A DNA stretch of 64,000 nt from Cyclobacterium sp. SYSU L10401 (lineage in GTDB: Bacteria > Bacteroidota > Bacteroidia > Cytophagales > Cyclobacteriaceae), in assembly GCF_010993705.1 (NCBI RefSeq), contig NZ_WOFO01000004.1, positions 62,001 through 126,000 of the forward strand, in the 5' to 3' direction. The position numbers and the translations under genes are program-made. This document shows, one piece after another, positions 22,630-30,674 of the stretch (its first letter is position 1; the number at the start of each line of letters is the position of its first letter). Under the pieces are notes generated by a model, which was not told the origin of the DNA, ran no database searches, and saw only the letters and a program-made list of their open reading frames with translations.

Positions 22630-23578
22630 CACCTATACACCAAGAGAAGAAAAAGACATTCAGGAATTGATCCGGGTGATGAAAGCATACCTGAGCCGAC
22701 AGTATCCGGATGGAAAAATACTGAGAAATTTTCACCCCAAAATGCATGGCCTCCTCAAGGGAACACTTACGATTTACAATGATATTCCCCAGGCACTGCA
22801 GGTAGGTCTCTTCAAAGAAGCCAAACAATATGATGTCTGGATCCGGCTTTCCAATGCCCCTCCAAAAATACAATCTGACAAACCAGCGTCTGGCAGAGGA
22901 TTGGCCATAAAAATACTGCAGGTGGAAGGGGAAATGATAGAGGAAGACCCTATCGGATTTGCCACTCAAAATATTTTAATGACCACAAGCCCCATCCTTT
23001 CTACATGGACCATCCGCTTGTATAGAAAGGCTATCCGTGCAGTACTATTTGGCCTTTGGGAGCAGCTGCGCTTTGCCATTAACCCCGCACATTGGCGCAG
23101 TATTTTTCTTACCCTTAAATATGCGGCCAAACACGATAACCTGCTTTCCCAGACCTATTTCTCCGGTGGTGCTTTCAAACACGGGCCGGACCATTTTGTG
23201 AAATTTGTTTTGACCCCTAACAATCCGGCTTTGGGTTACAGCCTGGAAGAGCCCCGTTCGGAGGATTTTCTCAAGGAGCAGCTCAGGGAAGATTGCCAAA
23301 AAAGGGAACATGCCTTTACCCTGAATGTACAAATCCACAAAAACGAAAAAGATCAGCCCCTGGAGAATACCTCCAAAGTCTGGAAAGCCGACCTGGTCCC
23401 GGTTGCCAGCCTGAACATTCCAAAGCAGGATTTTGATACCGAAGAAAGGGTACACCTGGGTGAAAAAATGGAATTTTCTCCCTGGATAGGACTAAAAGCC
23501 CATGCGCCAGTGGGCGGCATCAACCGGGCCAGAAGAAGGGTTTACAAGGAATTGGCCGCTTTTCGGAAATCACTATGA
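22622..23578 (+). CDS. Catalase-like heme protein
   Basis: The 318-aa protein starts at the ATG at 22622, which overlaps the end of the DyP gene by 8 bp. It has the reduced catalase fold seen in short catalase-like families (y4iL-like). FHPKMHGLLKGTLTI holds the probable distal His (about 42), and DVWIRLSNAPPK, SGRGLAIKIL and a FATQNILMTTSP region follow. It lacks the C-terminal flavodoxin-like domain of large catalases and is shorter than typical clade 3 enzymes. It probably decomposes or uses peroxides, perhaps organic ones. The stop codon abuts that of the convergent FAD oxidase gene, so the two 3' ends face each other directly. Confidence 0.82.
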   Translation: MNDTYTPREEKDIQELIRVMKAYLSRQYPDGKILRNFHPKMHGLLKGTLTIYNDIPQALQVGLFKEAKQYDVWIRLSNAPPKIQSDKPASGRGLAIKILQVEGEMIEEDPIGFATQNILMTTSPILSTWTIRLYRKAIRAVLFGLWEQLRFAINPAHWRSIFLTLKYAAKHDNLLSQTYFSGGAFKHGPDHFVKFVLTPNNPALGYSLEEPRSEDFLKEQLREDCQKREHAFTLNVQIHKNEKDQPLENTSKVWKADLVPVASLNIPKQDFDTEERVHLGEKMEFSPWIGLKAHAPVGGINRARRRVYKELAAFRKSL

Positions 23579-25492
23579 GTGCTGAATCCTGTCCAGAAAG
23601 GCATTACAAAAAGTACTGCCTCCAAAAAACTCCTGCTCCTTTTCCCAATCCCTGAACCTGGGAAAGGCTTTTTCAACCATTTGACGGTGCCAGGGCTCCA
23701 CGGAAAGCCCCCAGTGAGGAACTGCACCCAACTCCAGCAATGCCCTTTCCAAACGCATAAACAAGGGATAACTACCGGTAACATCCTTGACACTGACCAG
23801 TTCGATCATGCACATGTCCGATTGGTTCATCATGGATAAATGGGCAGGACACTTCTTGACAAATCTCAAAGCAAAAGGGGCAGCCAATAATTGATCGTAT
23901 TCCTGAGAAGCTTCACAATTTTTAATGATCAAATCTACTGCTTCAAACACCTTGTCCAGAGGAAATCCAAATTCTATGGCATACCCATAAAACTTTAATT
24001 CACCCAGCCCCTGGTCCAATACATTTCTGGCCTGGTCTTCAAACCCTCCACCGGCATCATCCTTGTGATCCACCAGCCTTTTAAGGGAGTTATTCGTCAT
24101 TCTCGGTATAGATAGGTGGTTTTTATTAAACACCCAGGGAGAAAGCCTGCCGGAAATGGCTATGCCGGAAATAAAAGAAGATATGTAATTCCTTTCCCTC
24201 CCGGCATGGTGACCACCCGGTTCTTTTTCACTGTAATTTCGGGTAGTGACCAGACATTTTCTCTTTTTACCATCTTCCGTAGGAGATTCCATATCCCGGT
24301 AGGGGTTGATCAGTACCTCAAAATGCCGGTGAGCATTGATATAGTGGTACATGCCTTCCTGCATCATCTCTTTTTTGACATCTTCCCAATTCCGCAAAAT
24401 CCTTTCTTCGAAAAGCCGGTAATCCGGCTGGGCTTCCAATATCATAGAAAAAACAATCCCTACAGATCCAATGCCCACCATTACCGCATTGAATTTTTCA
24501 TCATCCTGTATCAGTGTGATTCCATGCTTTTTATTCCTTTCGTCCTTTTGAAATGCCTCTGGATCAGTGATGCCATCCCGGGGCTCTACACGGTACACTT
24601 TCCCCCCCTTACCTACTATGGTCATGGACTTGGCAAAGGCAGAAACCGGACCTATACCAATGCCGGAACCATGGGTAGAAGTGGCAATGGCTCCGGTAAT
24701 GGATTGAATACTGGAGCCCCCCTGGTTGATCAAAGCCAGTTGGTGATGGGTAAGGGCCTGAATCAAATGCCTGATCTTGGTGCCGCCACCGGTCTCAAAC
24801 AAATAGTGGGTTTCCGTATTTTTTTGATTGCCAAAGTTCACCTCTACCTCAAATCCATCCCGAAATGCTTCCTTGATCCATTCCCTGGCCGGCCTTTGGG
24901 TCATGTTCATGTCCTGGGTGCAAACCAAATAGTCTTCACATTGGGCAACAGCAGTCAGGGCATGCCCGGAACCTATGGCCCGGATCTTACGGCCATTTTT
25001 TTCGGCCAACCTGACCAAAGAACAAACCTCTTCGAGGCCGGAATAATCGTAGGTGCCGCACCTGGGATCCTGAGGTGAAAAGTTCTTATATTCTCCATTT
25101 CCTGGTACAAAAAATTGCAGGGGTTCTGAAAAGTGGTTACCAAACCAGTTGGCCCATTTCCTTCTTTTATTCTTTTCTTTTGGAAAAAAATCTTCACGGG
25201 TCAACTCCTTATCCAAAGACAATACCACCTTTTCATGACTGTCCATGTTCCTGTTAAGACGGTTTTCCACCAGCCTGCGCACAAATCTGGGCCGTATCAT
25301 GAAATTAATAACGCTTACCCAACGGTTTCTTTTGATCCTGGAGCAATGATCTGTCAAGGTATCATCCAACAATTCTATGTGCCTGGGCACATTTTCCCGG
25401 TTAAAAATAACCTGAAACACCAATCGGATAAGGACCCATGAGACAATGGTATTCCCTTTTTTCCAGGATATAAATTTTGATAGGGCAGTCAT
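23573..25492 (-). CDS. FAD-linked oxidase, aldonolactone-oxidase-like
   Basis: The 639-aa protein contains a PCMH-type FAD-binding domain at about residues 140-340, with IGSGHALTAV (His 177, where aldonolactone oxidases attach FAD covalently) and ATSTHGSGIGIGPVSA. It also has a C-terminal ALO-like region ending near PHWGLSVEPW and FPRFRDWEKEQEFFGG. This plan fits L-gulono/D-arabinono-lactone oxidases and alditol oxidases, which pass electrons to O2 and make H2O2. The first 130 residues, partly hydrophobic (about 18-32), are an unusual N-terminal extension. The gene converges on the catalase-like gene with the stop codons side by side. A functional link (peroxide producer next to peroxide consumers) is inferred. 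Confidence 0.82.
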   Translation of the reverse strand: MTALSKFISWKKGNTIVSWVLIRLVFQVIFNRENVPRHIELLDDTLTDHCSRIKRNRWVSVINFMIRPRFVRRLVENRLNRNMDSHEKVVLSLDKELTREDFFPKEKNKRRKWANWFGNHFSEPLQFFVPGNGEYKNFSPQDPRCGTYDYSGLEEVCSLVRLAEKNGRKIRAIGSGHALTAVAQCEDYLVCTQDMNMTQRPAREWIKEAFRDGFEVEVNFGNQKNTETHYLFETGGGTKIRHLIQALTHHQLALINQGGSSIQSITGAIATSTHGSGIGIGPVSAFAKSMTIVGKGGKVYRVEPRDGITDPEAFQKDERNKKHGITLIQDDEKFNAVMVGIGSVGIVFSMILEAQPDYRLFEERILRNWEDVKKEMMQEGMYHYINAHRHFEVLINPYRDMESPTEDGKKRKCLVTTRNYSEKEPGGHHAGRERNYISSFISGIAISGRLSPWVFNKNHLSIPRMTNNSLKRLVDHKDDAGGGFEDQARNVLDQGLGELKFYGYAIEFGFPLDKVFEAVDLIIKNCEASQEYDQLLAAPFALRFVKKCPAHLSMMNQSDMCMIELVSVKDVTGSYPLFMRLERALLELGAVPHWGLSVEPWHRQMVEKAFPRFRDWEKEQEFFGGSTFCNAFLDRIQHS

Positions 25493-25614: not shown

Positions 25615-25645
25615 TTTGAATTGATGGAAGAATTGAATACATTTG
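25615..25645 (+). promoter_or_regulatory. Promoter of the TPP-riboswitch operon
   Basis: TTTG (25615-25618), exactly 19 bp, then TACATTTG (25638-25645) is a perfect match to the Bacteroidota housekeeping promoter TTTG-N19-TAnnTTTG. Transcription should start near 25652, just before the riboswitch. Confidence 0.8.
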
Positions 25646-25654
25646 ACCAAAGAA

Positions 25655-25740
25655 ATAAACGCACGGGGTGCTGGAATTTATTCCGGCTGAGATCAAACCC
25701 GAAACCTGATTTGGATAATGCCAACGTAGGGATGCAAGCC
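25655..25740 (+). ncRNA. TPP riboswitch (THI box)
   Basis: The hallmark elements occur in order: CGGGGTGC (25664-25671), a P3 hairpin CTGGAA/TTCCGG, GGCTGAGA (25685-25692), ACCC, ACCTGATTTGGATAATGCC (25704-25722) and CGTAGGGA. GCA and TGC at the two ends can close P1. This is the thiamine pyrophosphate aptamer, matching the family consensus at nearly every invariant position. A perfect promoter starts just upstream, and an attenuator-like hairpin and a four-gene operon follow. High TPP should therefore turn the operon down. Confidence 0.96.
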
Positions 25741-25764
25741 AGAATTCCAATTGTAATTTGTAGC

Positions 25765-25800
25765 TCCATTCCCTGGTATTGCCGAGAATGGAATTTTTAT
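25765..25800 (+). terminator. Riboswitch expression platform (attenuator hairpin)
   Basis: TCCATTC (25765-25771) pairs with GAATGGA (25786-25792) and is followed by ATTTTTATTT. An upstream AATTCC (25743-25748) can pair with GGAATT (25790-25795) instead, giving a mutually exclusive antiterminator. This layout fits TPP-controlled transcription termination just before the first gene at 25818. Confidence 0.6.
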
Positions 25801-25817
25801 TTACAGACAAAGACAAT

Positions 25818-26540
25818 ATGGAACTTGAAAAAACGACTGGCGGACTGATACCTCAAAACAAGCAAAACTGGCAAAACCGGCCGGAATGGTTTTTTAACCG
25901 CAAGCACACCGATACCTATGAATTGTGGTACGAAGGGCGGTACAAAAGGGCGGAAATCTGGCAGAAAAAGGTTATGGAACAGTTGGTATCCAAAGACAGC
26001 AGAATCAAAACCCTCTTGGAATTCGGATGTGGTACCACCCGGTTTACCCGATGGTGGCAAGAAATTGGTATTGAAGCCTCCGGTGGAGACATCTCTCCCC
26101 TGATGCTTTCCCAGGCAATCCACCTTTTTGAGGGAGACCTGGTGATGGCAGATTCCCACCACATGCCCTTTAAAGACCATACGTTCGATGCCCTTGCTTT
26201 TATTACTACTTTTGAATACTACAAGGACCCTGTAAAGGTAATCAGGGAAGCGGCCCGGGTGGGCAAATACGGAATCGCCATGGGCATGATGAACAGAAAC
26301 TCCCCCAAAGTGCTGCGCAGGAGGGTTCAGCAGCTATTCGGAAAAAACCCCTTTTATGTGACAGCTACCTTTTATACCCCGGACAAACTTATACAAATCA
26401 TCCAGGAGGCCTTAAAGGGAAGAACTTATTCCATAGAATGGTCCTGCACCGGCTTGCCCAAATGGTTTCCGGTCCAGCAATGGGGGCTGCCCTACGGGGA
26501 TTTTTTTGGTTTATATGTTCAACTTCATGATGTCGAATAA
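25818..26540 (+). CDS. Class I SAM-dependent methyltransferase, TPP-riboswitch-controlled
   Basis: The protein has about 240 aa from the ATG at 25818; an upstream frame extension would run into the attenuator. It has the Rossmann methyltransferase core: motif I LLEFGCGTTRF (66-76), GGDISPLMLSQA (acidic loop), VMADSHHMPFKDHTFDAL (motif II region), and a UbiE-like order throughout. The N-terminal 60 residues are rich in Trp, Arg and Lys. It is the first gene of an operon under a TPP riboswitch; the next gene begins within a base or two of its stop. The substrate is unknown. A thiamine precursor or a thiamine-like product is a reasonable guess from the regulation. The Trm112-like protein encoded at the operon end could be its partner. 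Confidence 0.88.
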   Translation: MELEKTTGGLIPQNKQNWQNRPEWFFNRKHTDTYELWYEGRYKRAEIWQKKVMEQLVSKDSRIKTLLEFGCGTTRFTRWWQEIGIEASGGDISPLMLSQAIHLFEGDLVMADSHHMPFKDHTFDALAFITTFEYYKDPVKVIREAARVGKYGIAMGMMNRNSPKVLRRRVQQLFGKNPFYVTATFYTPDKLIQIIQEALKGRTYSIEWSCTGLPKWFPVQQWGLPYGDFFGLYVQLHDVE

Positions 26541-26541
26541 A

Positions 26542-27597
26542 ATGGCTGATCAACTGGGTAAAATAGATGAGTCTTTGTTGGAAGACTTTATCGCCTCACG
26601 ATGTGGGGCCTACAGGGAAGAGGTTTTGGTAAAACCCGGCTTTGGCAGGGACGTATCCCTTGTGGAACTACCGGGACAACAGGTCATGGCATTGACCAGC
26701 GATCCCTTGTCCTTGATTCCAACGCTTGGATTACAGGAATCGGCCTGGCTGTCTGTGCAATTAATGGCCAATGACATGGCCACCACAGGTTTTGCGCCGC
26801 AATATGGCCAGTTTGTACTGAATTTGCCAGCTGGTTTCTCCAGGGATGATTTCAAAATTTACTGGGAGCATATCCATCATTACTGCCAGAACATTGGCAT
26901 GGCCATCACTGGTGGACATACCGGTTTTGTTGAGGGGCAAAACTCGACCATAGCCGGAGGGGGAACTTTCATAAGCATCCTCCCCAAAGACCAGGCCCTG
27001 ACGGCCAACCAAGCCCGCCCTGGAGATGTGCTCCTGGTTACCAAAACCGCCGCTTTGTCCTCCTCAGCTATCCTGGCCATGAGTTTTCCGAAAACCATCA
27101 AGGATAAACTGGGAAATGAAACTTACCAAAAAGCCTGTGCATCCTTTTATAACACCTCCTCTCTGGAGGAGGCCCTGGCTGCTGCAGGCAGCCCTGGGGA
27201 AAAGGTAGTGACTGCCATGCATGATGTAACGGAAGGAGGCATATCAGGAGCTATCTATGAGCTGGCTGCTGCTTCAGGCTGTGGGGTACGCCTGGAGAAA
27301 GATAAGGTCCCGGTAGGTCCGGTCCAACAAGCCATTTGCAACCTATTTGATCTCGACCCCATGCGATGTATCGGTGCGGGTTCTATGATCATCAGCTGTG
27401 ATAAATCCAGGGTTCGGCTTATTCATGACCGGATAAGAGCAAAAGGAATCCGCTGTACTGTTGTAGGTGAATTAACCGAAAACTCCGGGGGGATGGTGCT
27501 GCTGGAGGATGATGGCTCATCCCGGCCACTTGATTACCAAAAAACCGATCCTTACTGGGCCGCTTTTTCGAACGCATACAAACAAGGCTGGAAATGA
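26542..27597 (+). CDS. PurM/HypE-fold (AIR synthase-related) ATP-dependent protein
   Basis: The protein has about 351 aa from the ATG at 26542, one base after the methyltransferase stop; in-frame ATGs at 26527 and 26530 are possible. It has the two-domain AIRS fold: an N-terminal half with TSDPLSLIPTLGLQE and ANDMATTGFAPQYG, GGHTGFVEGQ, then a C-terminal half with MHDVTEGGISGAIYELA and GAGSMIIS. The superfamily contains PurM, PurL, ThiL, SelD and HypE and catalyses ATP-dependent activation. It reads closest to HypE but lacks the C-terminal Cys that HypE needs, and it lacks ThiL-type motifs. Under TPP control, it may phosphorylate or activate a thiamine-related substrate. It overlaps the ThiE-like gene through ATGA. 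Confidence 0.87.
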   Translation: MADQLGKIDESLLEDFIASRCGAYREEVLVKPGFGRDVSLVELPGQQVMALTSDPLSLIPTLGLQESAWLSVQLMANDMATTGFAPQYGQFVLNLPAGFSRDDFKIYWEHIHHYCQNIGMAITGGHTGFVEGQNSTIAGGGTFISILPKDQALTANQARPGDVLLVTKTAALSSSAILAMSFPKTIKDKLGNETYQKACASFYNTSSLEEALAAAGSPGEKVVTAMHDVTEGGISGAIYELAAASGCGVRLEKDKVPVGPVQQAICNLFDLDPMRCIGAGSMIISCDKSRVRLIHDRIRAKGIRCTVVGELTENSGGMVLLEDDGSSRPLDYQKTDPYWAAFSNAYKQGWK

Positions 27598-28262
27598 AAA
27601 AACTAAACCTTCAAACAGAAAAAGGGATTTACCTGATAATCGATCCCGCATCAAAGCCGGAAAACGAACTTTTCGATGTACTGGAAAAGATCGGGCGGTA
27701 CCCCATCATTGCTCTTCAGGTATGGGACCATTTCAGACCATCCCAGGATGGCCAAAAGTTTATCCGGAAGGTCTGTCGGCTGGTTCGCCCACACCCTTTT
27801 CCCGTATTGGTCAATAACCGTTGGAAATGGATAAAGGATACGGGTTCAGATGGGGTGCATTTTGATCAAATCCCGGAAAACCTGGAGGCCATCAGAAAGA
27901 ATCTGCCTGAAGACACCCTTTTCGGAATCACCTGTAACAATGACCAGGACCTCATTAACCAGGCAGAAGAAAAAGGCTTTGATTACCTTTCCTTTTGCTC
28001 TGTTTTTCCCTCAGCTACTGCCAATAGTTGTGATTTGGTTTCCTTTGAAACAATACGGAAAACCCAAAAATCCAGCAAGCTCCCCCTTTTTCTGGCCGGT
28101 GGAATCAACCTGCATAACTTGTCAAAACTAAATGAGCTATCCCATTCAGGAGTAGCTGTCATTTCAGGCATCATGCAGGCAGCCGATCCCTGCAAGGCCA
28201 TAGAAGCCTATTTACTTAAATTACAAAACACTCCATTTAATGAAAATAGCCACCATCAATAA
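27594..28262 (+). CDS. ThiE/TenI-like thiamine phosphate synthase family protein
   Basis: The 222-aa TIM-barrel protein aligns with ThiE/TenI. VLVNNRWKWI (71-80) corresponds to the family INDR segment, SDGVHFDQIP (85-94) to GADGVHLGQ, SVFPSATANS (136-145) to the GPVFPTxTK phosphate loop, and LAGGIN (167-172) to ALGGI. ThiE joins HMP-pyrophosphate and thiazole phosphate to give thiamine phosphate. Here the phosphate loop lacks the TK and several substrate residues differ, so the substrate may be different. The TPP riboswitch upstream supports a thiamine-related role. The gene overlaps its neighbours at both ends. Confidence 0.85.
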   Translation: MKKLNLQTEKGIYLIIDPASKPENELFDVLEKIGRYPIIALQVWDHFRPSQDGQKFIRKVCRLVRPHPFPVLVNNRWKWIKDTGSDGVHFDQIPENLEAIRKNLPEDTLFGITCNNDQDLINQAEEKGFDYLSFCSVFPSATANSCDLVSFETIRKTQKSSKLPLFLAGGINLHNLSKLNELSHSGVAVISGIMQAADPCKAIEAYLLKLQNTPFNENSHHQ

Positions 28263-28506
28263 ATTGTGTTGCCCATTTGACCATTCAGATTTGACACTGA
28301 CCCGGGTTTCTGAAGATACAGAAGGAAAAATCCTGGAGGGCTGGTTGCATTGCCCCCATTGCACACGGATATATCCCATTGTCAAAGGTATTCCGATCAT
28401 GAGCCCGGATGCGTACAGGGAGATGGACATGGAGAAGCCCTTGTTCGAAAAATGGCAAAAGAACCTTGAGGGCAAGAAGGTAAAGGATTTCAGGTTAATT
28501 GAATAG
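28240..28506 (+). CDS. Trm112-like zinc-binding protein
   Basis: The 88-aa protein has CC at 10-11 and CPHC at 38-41, the four-Cys zinc site of the Trm112/YcaR family, then YPIVKGIPIMSP, the conserved strand after it. Trm112 proteins bind and stabilise SAM methyltransferases. A methyltransferase is encoded three genes upstream in the same operon, so this is its likely partner. It overlaps the ThiE-like gene by 23 bp. The C-terminal 35 residues are charged and helical. Confidence 0.85.
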   Translation: MKIATINKLCCPFDHSDLTLTRVSEDTEGKILEGWLHCPHCTRIYPIVKGIPIMSPDAYREMDMEKPLFEKWQKNLEGKKVKDFRLIE

Positions 28507-28712: not shown

Positions 28713-30674
28713 ATGCATATAAAAAGACCCAGGATCCGGCAGAAAATTATCTTCACCCTGGAAAGGCAATTGGTAAAGGGAGCCCATTTTCAGTTATTGC
28801 TGGTGGCAGCACTGATCGGACTGATATCCATCATAGGGGGAATATTGGTCATGCCATCGGGGGCACCCACGGCTACTTTTGGTGAATCCGTATGGTGGGC
28901 TTTTTTACGGCTTAGTGACCCCGGGTACCTGGGCGACGATGAAGGCAATTGGCGAAGATTTATTTCAACCCTGATAACGGTAGCCGGCTATGTGGTCTTT
29001 CTGGGCTCACTGGTGGCAGTTATCACCACCTGGATGAATCGGAAAATCAGGCATTTGGAACAGGGTCTGACTCCGGTAACAGCCAACAACCACATTTTAA
29101 TTCTGGGTTGGTCAAACAGGACCATTCACATTGCAGCTGAAATTTTCCAGTCTGTGGGTAGAATCAGGCGGTTTCTGGAAAAATACGATACCAAAAAGTT
29201 ACGGTTGATCATCCTCTCAGAAGAGGTCAGTCCTTTTCAAATGCAGGAACTAAAAGACCATCCCATGATCGGAAGCCGGGCCCATGAAATTGTATTGCGA
29301 ACCGGGCTGGCCATAGACCGGGAACACCTGCGCCGGGTGGATAGCCTGAATGCGTCTTGTATCATTATCCCCAGTTTGGCATATGGAAGAAAGGAACTGA
29401 TCAATCCTGATATAGAAACCATCAAATGCCTGCTTTCATTAAATGCTGAGGCCAATGCCCAAAACTACCACAAGCTGCCTTATGTAGTAGCAGAAATACA
29501 AGACGAAAACAAGATCAATGCCGCCCGCAGGTCCTACACAGGTCCGCTGGAAGTCGTGGGCAGTAACACCATCATCAGCAGGCTAATGGCCCAAAACATC
29601 CGGCATCCGGGGCTTTCGGAAGTCTACAATGAAATCCTCTCACAGGTGGATGATAGCAATTTGTTTTCACAGGCATTTCCTGAATTAATTGGCCAACCCA
29701 TAGGTCTTTTAAAAAAAGCATTTACCAAAGCGGTGGTGTTGGGCATAATCAAAACAGATGGGGACAATTTTGCTCCTCACCTAAACCTGCCTGATGAAAA
29801 GGTACTGGAAGATGGAGATCTTCTGGTCCTGCTAGCCAGAAGTTCTACAGATTTGGTTTGGCGAAGGGATAGGGTTGCAACAAAGGAAGCGCCTGCCCCG
29901 TTTGTCGGCCTGCTGCCTGTGGAAGAACAGCAAAGCCCCAACCGGATTTTGATTTTGGGATGGAATGAACATGTACCTTCCCTTATCAGGGAATTGGGTA
30001 CCTATGAAGATGAGAATTATTTTATCCGACTTATCACCCTGCGTCCCGTATCAGAAAGGGAAAAGGACCTGGCATTCTTAGAAGAGGACAACAACCGGGT
30101 AAGGGTGGAACATGTGGTAGCAGATTTTATCCGGGAATCTGAAATCAGAAAAATTGAAGCTGAAACCTTTGACCACATACTGCTGGTAAGTAGTGACCGA
30201 CTTGAAGAGGAAGAGGAGGCAGATGCCAGGACCATGGTAGGCTATGTATTACTCGAAGAGGTGCTGGAGAAAGCCAATAAAAGACCGTCTGTGTTGATTG
30301 AATTGTCAGACCCCAGCAACGAATCGCTCATCAAACGTTTTCAGAGTGAAGTCATCATCAGTCCCATGGTATTGAGCCATTTGCTGGCAGGAATTGCCCT
30401 GCAGCAGGAACTCAATAGTATCTACAATGAACTTTTCACTGTTGGAGGGGCAGAAATTATTTTCCGGGACCTCATGGAATACGGGGTTTCTCTTGGGAAA
30501 ATACGCTTTTTTGAACTCGAATCACTGGCTAGCGCTCATGGGGAAACCGTGCTGGGCGTCTACCTGGATCGGGAAGACGAAGCAGGAAACCACCTGTTGT
30601 TAAACCCGGCCAAAGGTCATGAAATAAATCTCTCAGAAAAAGACCGGCTGGTAGTACTGACTACCTTTTATTGA
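28713..30674 (+). CDS. CASTOR/POLLUX-like ion channel with TrkA/RCK domains
   Basis: The 653-aa protein has two transmembrane helices near residues 26-48 and 85-108. Between them is a pore loop containing RLSDPGYLGDDEGN. Two Rossmann-type RCK domains follow, one starting NHILILGWSNRTIHIAAEI (about 126) and one starting NRILILGWNEHVPSLIREL (about 410). This is the plan of plant CASTOR/POLLUX nuclear-envelope channels and their bacterial relatives, not of classical KcsA channels, because no TVGYG filter is present. It probably conducts K+ or Ca2+ under ligand control. It starts about 200 bp after the TPP operon, and I see no direct functional link to it. Confidence 0.88.
   Translation: MHIKRPRIRQKIIFTLERQLVKGAHFQLLLVAALIGLISIIGGILVMPSGAPTATFGESVWWAFLRLSDPGYLGDDEGNWRRFISTLITVAGYVVFLGSLVAVITTWMNRKIRHLEQGLTPVTANNHILILGWSNRTIHIAAEIFQSVGRIRRFLEKYDTKKLRLIILSEEVSPFQMQELKDHPMIGSRAHEIVLRTGLAIDREHLRRVDSLNASCIIIPSLAYGRKELINPDIETIKCLLSLNAEANAQNYHKLPYVVAEIQDENKINAARRSYTGPLEVVGSNTIISRLMAQNIRHPGLSEVYNEILSQVDDSNLFSQAFPELIGQPIGLLKKAFTKAVVLGIIKTDGDNFAPHLNLPDEKVLEDGDLLVLLARSSTDLVWRRDRVATKEAPAPFVGLLPVEEQQSPNRILILGWNEHVPSLIRELGTYEDENYFIRLITLRPVSEREKDLAFLEEDNNRVRVEHVVADFIRESEIRKIEAETFDHILLVSSDRLEEEEEADARTMVGYVLLEEVLEKANKRPSVLIELSDPSNESLIKRFQSEVIISPMVLSHLLAGIALQQELNSIYNELFTVGGAEIIFRDLMEYGVSLGKIRFFELESLASAHGETVLGVYLDREDEAGNHLLLNPAKGHEINLSEKDRLVVLTTFY

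Follow-up and report, generated by a model that had tools for sequence, protein, structure and literature searches.

A four-gene operon behind a TPP riboswitch in Cyclobacterium and other Bacteroidota, a candidate thiamine-supply module

Layout of the locus

We analyzed a stretch of 64,000 nucleotides (hereafter, the window) from the 5.9-Mb genome of Cyclobacterium sp. SYSU L10401, a member of the Bacteroidota (contig NZ_WOFO01000004.1, positions 62,001 to 126,000), in which four genes lie in tandem behind a thiamine pyrophosphate (TPP) riboswitch. The genes encode an S-adenosylmethionine (SAM)-dependent methyltransferase (MT), a PurM-superfamily protein (PURM), a divergent TMP-TENI protein (THIE), and a Trm112-like protein (T112). 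The features of the locus, in window coordinates, are as follows.

25615-25645, plus strand: Bacteroidota-type promoter TTTG-N19-TACATTTG, exact match
25654-25749, plus strand: TPP riboswitch aptamer (THI element, RF00059), Rfam covariance match
25764-25798, plus strand: putative intrinsic terminator with a 7-bp outer stem (TCCATTC/GAATGGA) followed by a T run; folding free energy (dG) -11.0
25818-26540, plus strand: MT, class I SAM-dependent methyltransferase, 240 aa, PF08241 (Methyltransf_11)
26542-27597, plus strand: PURM, PurM-superfamily protein, 351 aa, Pfam AIRS/AIRS_C
27594-28262, plus strand: THIE, divergent TMP-TENI TIM-barrel protein, 222 aa, PF02581 at 103 bits
28240-28506, plus strand: T112, Trm112-like protein, 88 aa, PF03966 (Trm112p) at 33.5 bits against a cut-off of 22

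An initial annotation, made from the nucleotide letters, had described four overlapping or abutting genes here. All four are present, with small corrections. The start of MT, for example, appears better placed at ATG 25818 than at TTG 25779, because the terminator hairpin encloses the latter codon and the former is where several orthologues begin. MT (ending at 26540) and PURM (starting at 26542) nearly abut, PURM and THIE overlap by 4 nt (27594-27597), and THIE and T112 overlap by 23 nt (28240-28262). The family names proposed in that annotation (methyltransferase, PurM/HypE-fold, ThiE-like, and Trm112-like) agree with the Pfam families Methyltransf_11, AIRS/AIRS_C, TMP-TENI, and Trm112p.

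Conservation of the unit and its leader

Among 59 genomes of relatives, PURM (called at E <= 1e-20) was found in 16, the source genome counted, and in all 16 the four genes stand in order on one strand; RF00059 was matched at gathering level before the operon in each of the other 15. A scan of 84,980 species genomes with an MT alignment yielded 217 relatives, of which 80 loci were kept and analyzed. These loci represent at most 78 genomes, with two Arenibacter genomes contributing two loci each, and all 80 belong, judged by their names, to the Bacteroidota: Cyclobacterium, Algoriphagus, Rufibacter, Pontibacter, Sphingobacterium, Pedobacter, Chryseobacterium, Arenibacter, Salegentibacter, Flavobacterium, Runella, Mariniphaga, and others. 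The four genes are ordered on one strand in 78 loci, the exceptions (L136 and L142) being contig ends. A TPP aptamer precedes MT in all 80 loci (E <= 2.2e-15), according to our own covariance model built from 17 aptamers; since 13 of these came from Cyclobacterium, the nine Cyclobacterium loci among the 80 are not independent of the model. The model gave 82 matches, two of which were set aside: L130 (40.2 bits, on the minus strand, with no gene seen after it) and L087 (19.4 bits). The co-occurrence of the four families next to THI boxes, which had been proposed as a check on the initial annotation, was thus borne out, and the recurrence of the arrangement in 15 other PURM-bearing relatives and in 78 of the 80 scan loci argues against chance.

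The operon is widespread but patchy, because among 148 genomes drawn evenly from the phylum only 4, the source genome counted, carry MT at E <= 1e-40. Carriage on plasmids was rejected, with no MT homologue at E 1e-30 among 72,556 plasmids. Arenibacter sp. F26102 and A. arenosicollis hold two full copies each, every copy with its own TPP riboswitch (L096 + L100; L102 + L125).

We also rejected the idea that the operon is part of a larger cluster: neighbor clustering in the fetched flanks revealed no fifth conserved gene family, the most frequent neighbor occurring in 11 of the 80 loci. This result bears on the suggestion that the operon acts on a modified thiamine, producing an analogue or antivitamin or else clearing one by detoxification, for which the TPP-controlled bacimethrin cluster would be the model. 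A methyltransferase behind a TPP riboswitch suits that suggestion; conservation as high as this across many genera does not, nor does the lack of any additional conserved neighbor that might serve as transporter, toxin part, or self-protection, and we consider such a role unlikely.

The immediate neighbors of the operon in the window are a divergent upstream gene (23573-25492) for a 639-aa flavin adenine dinucleotide (FAD)-linked oxidoreductase related to sugar 1,4-lactone oxidases, and a downstream gene (28713-30674) for a Castor/Pollux-type ion-channel protein. Each adjoins the operon in 11 relatives of the same genus and is absent in four others, in the case of the channel gene from the stretches available; in locus L029 the oxidoreductase is represented by two open reading frames.

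The aptamer at 25654-25749 matches RF00059 over the full length of the model with 64.7 bits (gathering cut-off, 54.3; E 2e-10). It is the sole gathering-level Rfam match in the window and was recovered in a whole-genome search as well, which upholds the earlier claim of a near-consensus THI box at 25655-25740. The promoter, whose 3' end lies 9 nt before the aptamer, is also as exact as had been claimed. By number alone the TTTG-N19-TACATTTG pattern, which is of the Bacteroidota promoter type, is unremarkable (3 occurrences in the window vs 3.08 expected), and a sigma-70 scan of the window placed no promoter at 25615-25645. In 47 of the 80 orthologous loci the 60 nt before the aptamer contain the element TANNTTTG (3.7 in shuffles), and the full two-part pattern occurs upstream of the aptamer in only 6 (0.1 in shuffles). 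The promoter is credible because of its position just before the aptamer together with this partial conservation.

About 15 nt 3' of the aptamer begins the putative terminator hairpin. Taken alone, the leader of the window is not exceptional (fold z-score -1.55, with 16 of 200 shuffles folding as well), and a pattern-based terminator search of the window, allowing loops of 3-8, did not report the hairpin at 25764-25798. Across 65 of the 81 leaders, those left out being mostly close relatives, a hairpin with a dG of -10 kcal/mol or lower that abuts at least four T residues was found in 42, compared with 4 of 195 shuffles, and the stem sequences differ among leaders. These hairpins therefore support a predicted TPP-dependent transcription attenuation, in which bound TPP would allow the terminator to form and turn the operon off. 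A T run is missing in leaders L106 and L111, both from Chryseobacterium, and in L107 and L145; leaders of this kind, such as the two Chryseobacterium loci, may act on translation or otherwise.

The four proteins

For each of the four proteins a wide alignment was hand-picked (THIE, 50 sequences; PURM, 50; MT, 51; T112, 40). Conservation is highest, by a wide margin, in MT, with a mean pairwise identity of 81% over its 51 sequences, compared with 58% for PURM, 45% for THIE, and 58% for T112.

THIE aligns to Bacillus subtilis ThiE across most of its length, and its predicted model has a mean predicted local distance difference test (pLDDT) score of 93.5, with ThiE structures nearest and TenI slightly behind. 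The protein nevertheless falls below the cut-offs of the curated models for both families (TIGR00693 for ThiE, 99.3 bits vs 145.1; NF005819 for TenI, 43.8 bits vs 251). In B. subtilis ThiE, whose numbering is used here, R59, K61, D93, D112, and K159 serve magnesium and pyrophosphate binding. All 50 THIE sequences have Q, H, and T at the positions of Q57, H107, and S130, the position of N92 is N in 48/50, and the glycine of the GG phosphate loop is kept in 50/50. None of the five magnesium/pyrophosphate-site residues is kept in any sequence: R59 is replaced by W in all 50, K61 by N, H, or C, and D93 by N or E; position 112 is never D, and position 159 is never K (A, S, V, T, D, or N instead). 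A structure of the K159A mutant of ThiE exists (3o16). Canonical ThiE proteins from seven operon-bearing genomes are unaltered at the corresponding sites (Q, R, K, N, D, H, D, and K). New invariant residues have appeared in THIE, namely D91, N116, C135, and C146.

THIE thus shares with ThiE (1xi3, 2tps) the PF02581 family, the TIM-barrel fold, the Gln/Asn/His/Thr positions, and the GG loop, and differs from it in the five replaced residues and the new invariant ones. With TenI (1yad, 3qh2) it shares the superfamily and, in the five TenI proteins compared, the lack of K61, D93, and D112, whereas R59 and K159 persist in those TenI proteins, in which His occupies the positions of the Gln and Asn of THIE. 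In trees of 17 of the 50 THIE sequences, 7 ThiE, and 5 TenI, THIE formed one clade in 100% of 200 bootstrap replicates and ThiE in 90%; several long branches, which may group falsely, were kept in the tree. On this sequence evidence, THIE forms a clade of its own, separate from both ThiE and TenI. Because the magnesium/pyrophosphate-binding residues are lost, it is probably not a thiamine phosphate synthase. The earlier statement that the ThiE-like gene belongs to a known thiamine family holds for its PF02581 membership, with the qualification that none of the four genes is then likely to encode a bona fide thiamine enzyme.

PURM matches both the AIRS and AIRS_C halves in 50/50 aligned orthologues, and shares the conserved acidic positions and a DVTEGG-type motif with the superfamily of ThiL, HypE, SelD, and PurM. 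The protein of the window misses the curated cut-offs of HypE (TIGR02124, 92.8 bits vs 251.6) and ThiL (TIGR01379, 84.5 bits vs 184.15), and is well below that of SelD too. Where ThiL has GGDT, PURM has GGHT, with H in 50/50 sequences, and the EGVHF segment of ThiL is absent in the three PURM sequences aligned for it. The C-terminal cysteine of HypE carries a thiocarboxamide, unlike the window PURM, which has no Cys in its last 46 residues; a role as HypE for a hydrogenase was rejected on the missed cut-off and the lack of this terminal Cys.

A canonical ThiL is encoded in the source genome elsewhere than in the operon (323.5 bits, TIGR01379). Because of this separate gene, and because PURM lacks the ThiL signatures, complementation of a thiL mutant by the cluster, which had been suggested as an experiment, is unlikely. 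The same observations weigh on another explanation of the locus, that of an ordinary thiamine operon in which THIE would function as ThiE and PURM as an additional ThiL. The best family names (ThiE and HypE/ThiL) and the fold of THIE, nearest to that of ThiE, speak for it. Against it stand the five site residues, kept in 0/50 THIE sequences and retained by the canonical ThiE of seven operon genomes, as well as the scores of the window proteins below curated cut-offs, the ThiL encoded elsewhere, and the lack of ThiD, the source of the ThiE substrate, in 15 of the 16 operon relatives. We regard an ordinary operon as very improbable, and the combination of a canonical ThiE with a canonical ThiL was rejected on the active-site residues, the curated cut-offs, and the separate ThiL.

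The closest relatives of PURM among plasmid records are Haloarcula proteins named "AIR synthase family", at about 30% identity. In 3/3 of these plasmids the gene is divergent from genes for a thiamine-binding protein and a thiamine ABC binding protein (stretches L205:4499-7020, L210:4499-7020, and L211:4495-7020), a setting that speaks for a thiamine-related function; an RNA-family scan of one of the stretches gave no match. An Acetoanaerobium record with a PURM relative carries no annotation around the gene.

PF08241 was matched in 51/51 aligned MT orthologues. The best profile match of MT is 1vlm, followed more weakly by Bud23-type chains (E 1.1e-5) and, modestly, by 6f5z_A (E 0.0011), and its predicted model (pLDDT only 75) resembles 1vlm, Hvo_0019-Trm112 of Haloferax (6f5z), and Bud23-Trm112 (4qtt). 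T112 matches 6zxw_H, 6f5z_C, and eukaryotic TRM112 chains by profile; it meets the Pfam cut-off for Trm112p and scores 54.3 bits against the NCBIfam archaeal Trm112 model NF038101, below the cut-off of 77. MT and T112 therefore match the two chains of one solved methyltransferase-Trm112 complex (6f5z), and because both match chains of such known structures, we infer, as the natural reading, a heterodimer in which MT would be the catalytic chain and T112 its activator, as in Hvo_0019-Trm112 and Bud23-Trm112. Unlike the known pairs, the two proteins, with their pairing predicted from sequence and model, are encoded under a TPP riboswitch. The operon then probably provides three activities rather than four, since T112 is most simply a partner of MT.

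The substrates of characterized methyltransferase-Trm112 pairs, Bud23 among them, are RNA or proteins, activities partly named in the structure titles. The operon might accordingly serve a response to low TPP without thiamine synthesis, in which the MT-Trm112 pair methylates RNA, protein, or a metabolite in a TPP-sparing program. The likeness of MT and T112 to such pairs fits this proposal, which is hard to reconcile with the strict linkage of both genes to those for THIE, a TMP-TENI barrel, and PURM, a member of the ThiL superfamily, and we give it little credence.

Thiamine genes of operon genomes and the proposed function

ThiC and ThiG were tallied in 63 operon genomes, comprising the 16 relatives and 47 named genomes (48 of the 80 loci chosen for spread, minus L120). 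ThiC is missing in 56 of the 63 (15/16 relatives and 41/47 named genomes), and ThiG is missing in 58 at E <= 1e-20, a threshold set to exclude weak barrel matches; strong ThiG was found in 53 of the 148 genomes drawn from the phylum. In searches of the 59 relatives, strong ThiD (E <= 1e-48) and thiamine pyrophosphokinase (TPK) each occurred in 1 of the 16 operon relatives, and ThiL was above its cut-off in 56/59. Searches of the source genome for ThiC, ThiG, and TPK gave no match, and THIE is its only TMP-TENI protein. Five relatives (G012, G014, G022, G025, and G028) have canonical ThiL and lack ThiC, strong ThiD, TPK, and the operon alike, a pattern that suggests an unrecognized thiamine kinase or uptake of thiamine monophosphate.

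RF00059 was found above its cut-off at least once per genome in 52/52 operon genomes searched. The source genome has two TPP riboswitches, that of the operon and one before a TonB-dependent receptor gene. Among 29 further aptamer loci of operon genomes (L160-L188), 12 lie before the operon, 9 beside a homologue of the TonB receptor, 5 at thiamine biosynthesis genes, and 1 before an NAD(P)HX repair gene, with 2 unassigned. In Parapedobacter sp. SGR-10 (L196:3144-4863; G218:C1:81143 onward), a TPP riboswitch above the Rfam cut-off stands directly 5' of a gene for a bifunctional NAD(P)H-hydrate epimerase/dehydratase (YjeF_N + Carb_kinase), which is unusual for a TPP riboswitch. The operon-bearing Bacteroidales metagenome-assembled genome SKW298 has a Thi4-family gene beside ThiE and ThiC genes after a TPP riboswitch (L195:434-4008), and this cluster includes, judged by eye, a ThiD-like gene.

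Five features together lead us to propose that the operon is a source of thiamine phosphate under TPP shortage: its riboswitch, the hairpins that point to attenuation, the strict linkage of the four genes, a TMP-TENI fold among the products, and the lack of canonical genes. We favor, with modest confidence, a TPP-repressed thiamine-supply module of Bacteroidota that would use non-canonical chemistry to provide thiamine phosphate or its immediate precursor. At low TPP, the terminator would not form and the four proteins would be made. A heterodimer of MT and T112 may then methylate an intermediate, and PURM may use ATP to activate or phosphorylate a substrate oxygen, as is done in its superfamily, for example in a ring closure. 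THIE, which lacks the magnesium/pyrophosphate site and keeps the Gln/His/Thr positions and the GG loop, could perform a different, perhaps cysteine-dependent step. The separate canonical ThiL would convert the product, either thiamine monophosphate or its immediate precursor, to TPP, and the TonB receptor under the other TPP riboswitch of the source genome may import thiamine or a vitamer.

Such a module could work in either of two forms. In a salvage form, which we put forward tentatively, degraded, modified, or partial thiamine would be imported by the TonB receptor and turned into thiamine monophosphate, with ThiL finishing the path. The receptor gene lies behind a TPP riboswitch in the source genome, its homologues stand at 9 of the 29 further aptamer loci, and ThiC, ThiG, and ThiD are mostly missing in operon genomes. 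Seven of the 63 operon genomes carry ThiC as well, a combination easier to reconcile with salvage than with a pair of de novo routes. No known breakdown product, however, needs SAM-dependent methylation to regain thiamine, and ThiD, which phosphorylates hydroxymethylpyrimidine, is missing in 15/16 operon relatives. In a study of leaf strains, both ThiC and ThiG were present in each of the 21 strains prototrophic for thiamine (PMC9666465, Table 1), which also fits salvage; operon strains are not shown among them.

In a de novo form, which strikes us as doubtful, the four proteins would build one or both of the pyrimidine and thiazole rings without ThiC and ThiG, using a SAM-derived ring methyl and a PurM-type closure. 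Both ring synthases are missing in most operon genomes examined, a methyltransferase and a PurM-superfamily enzyme are encoded together behind a TPP riboswitch, the superfamily includes a heterocycle-forming synthase, and MT is the most constrained protein. Four proteins are nevertheless few for two rings and their coupling, an importer is predicted to be co-regulated, and no prototrophy data for operon strains were found in the open literature. Still somewhat more doubtful is the specific proposal of a thiamine phosphate biosynthesis independent of ThiC, ThiG, and ThiE, in which MT-Trm112 would add the ring methyl from SAM, PURM would close a ring, and a cysteine-dependent TMP-TENI barrel would complete the molecule.

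Several observations weigh against a thiamine-supply module in either form. Neither the operon nor ThiC is present in 31 of the 59 relatives, so loss of ThiC does not demand the operon, and the seven operon genomes with ThiC show that the two may coexist. Mutual exclusion of operon and ThiC is weak among relatives (1/16 vs 12/43, p = 0.09, kinship ignored). TPK is nearly as rare in relatives without the operon (1/43), and its absence is therefore not special to operon genomes. Completeness is not stated for the 47 named genomes, some of which are small assemblies, and a few absences may be gaps. No thiamine genes adjoin the PURM relatives in a Halobacterium record, two Haloferax records, and Acaryochloris. 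Known thiamine salvage offers no obvious role for a methyltransferase, and a search of the open literature found no expression or growth data for operon-carrying strains.

TPP-riboswitch control of operons is itself well known. In gut Bacteroidetes, the operons described include thiSEGCHF-tenI and OMthi, as well as pnuT-tnr3 in B. thetaiotaomicron, in the parts of the source consulted (PMC5613172). The present locus resembles these in having RF00059 directly upstream, and the source genome in having a TonB receptor under its other TPP riboswitch, whereas the four-gene operon contains none of the biosynthesis genes described there. A survey of TPP regulons (PMC3766115) describes other gene sets and, in the portion available to us, covers only Bacteroidaceae under this phylum, and could therefore have missed the operon. 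No description of the four-gene cluster was found in the open-access PMC literature searched, a scope outside which lie most subscription papers and all preprints. The gene set thus appears undescribed in the literature searched, and the finding would become new in kind only on proof of a thiamine pathway not yet described. The initial annotation had also suggested an undescribed thiamine-related process. That much is a fair inference, because a TPP riboswitch stands before genes other than the known thiamine genes and the set is strictly conserved; the chemistry itself is proposed rather than decided.

Thiamine biosynthesis is held to be well mapped, and genomes are classed as makers or auxotrophs of vitamin B1 by ThiC, ThiG, and their partners (PMC9666465 and PMC5613172, as far as consulted). 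The operon could alter such genome-based predictions in the Bacteroidota that carry it. The TMP-TENI fold, PurM-family chemistry, and the Trm112-type partnership in bacteria would each gain a new use.

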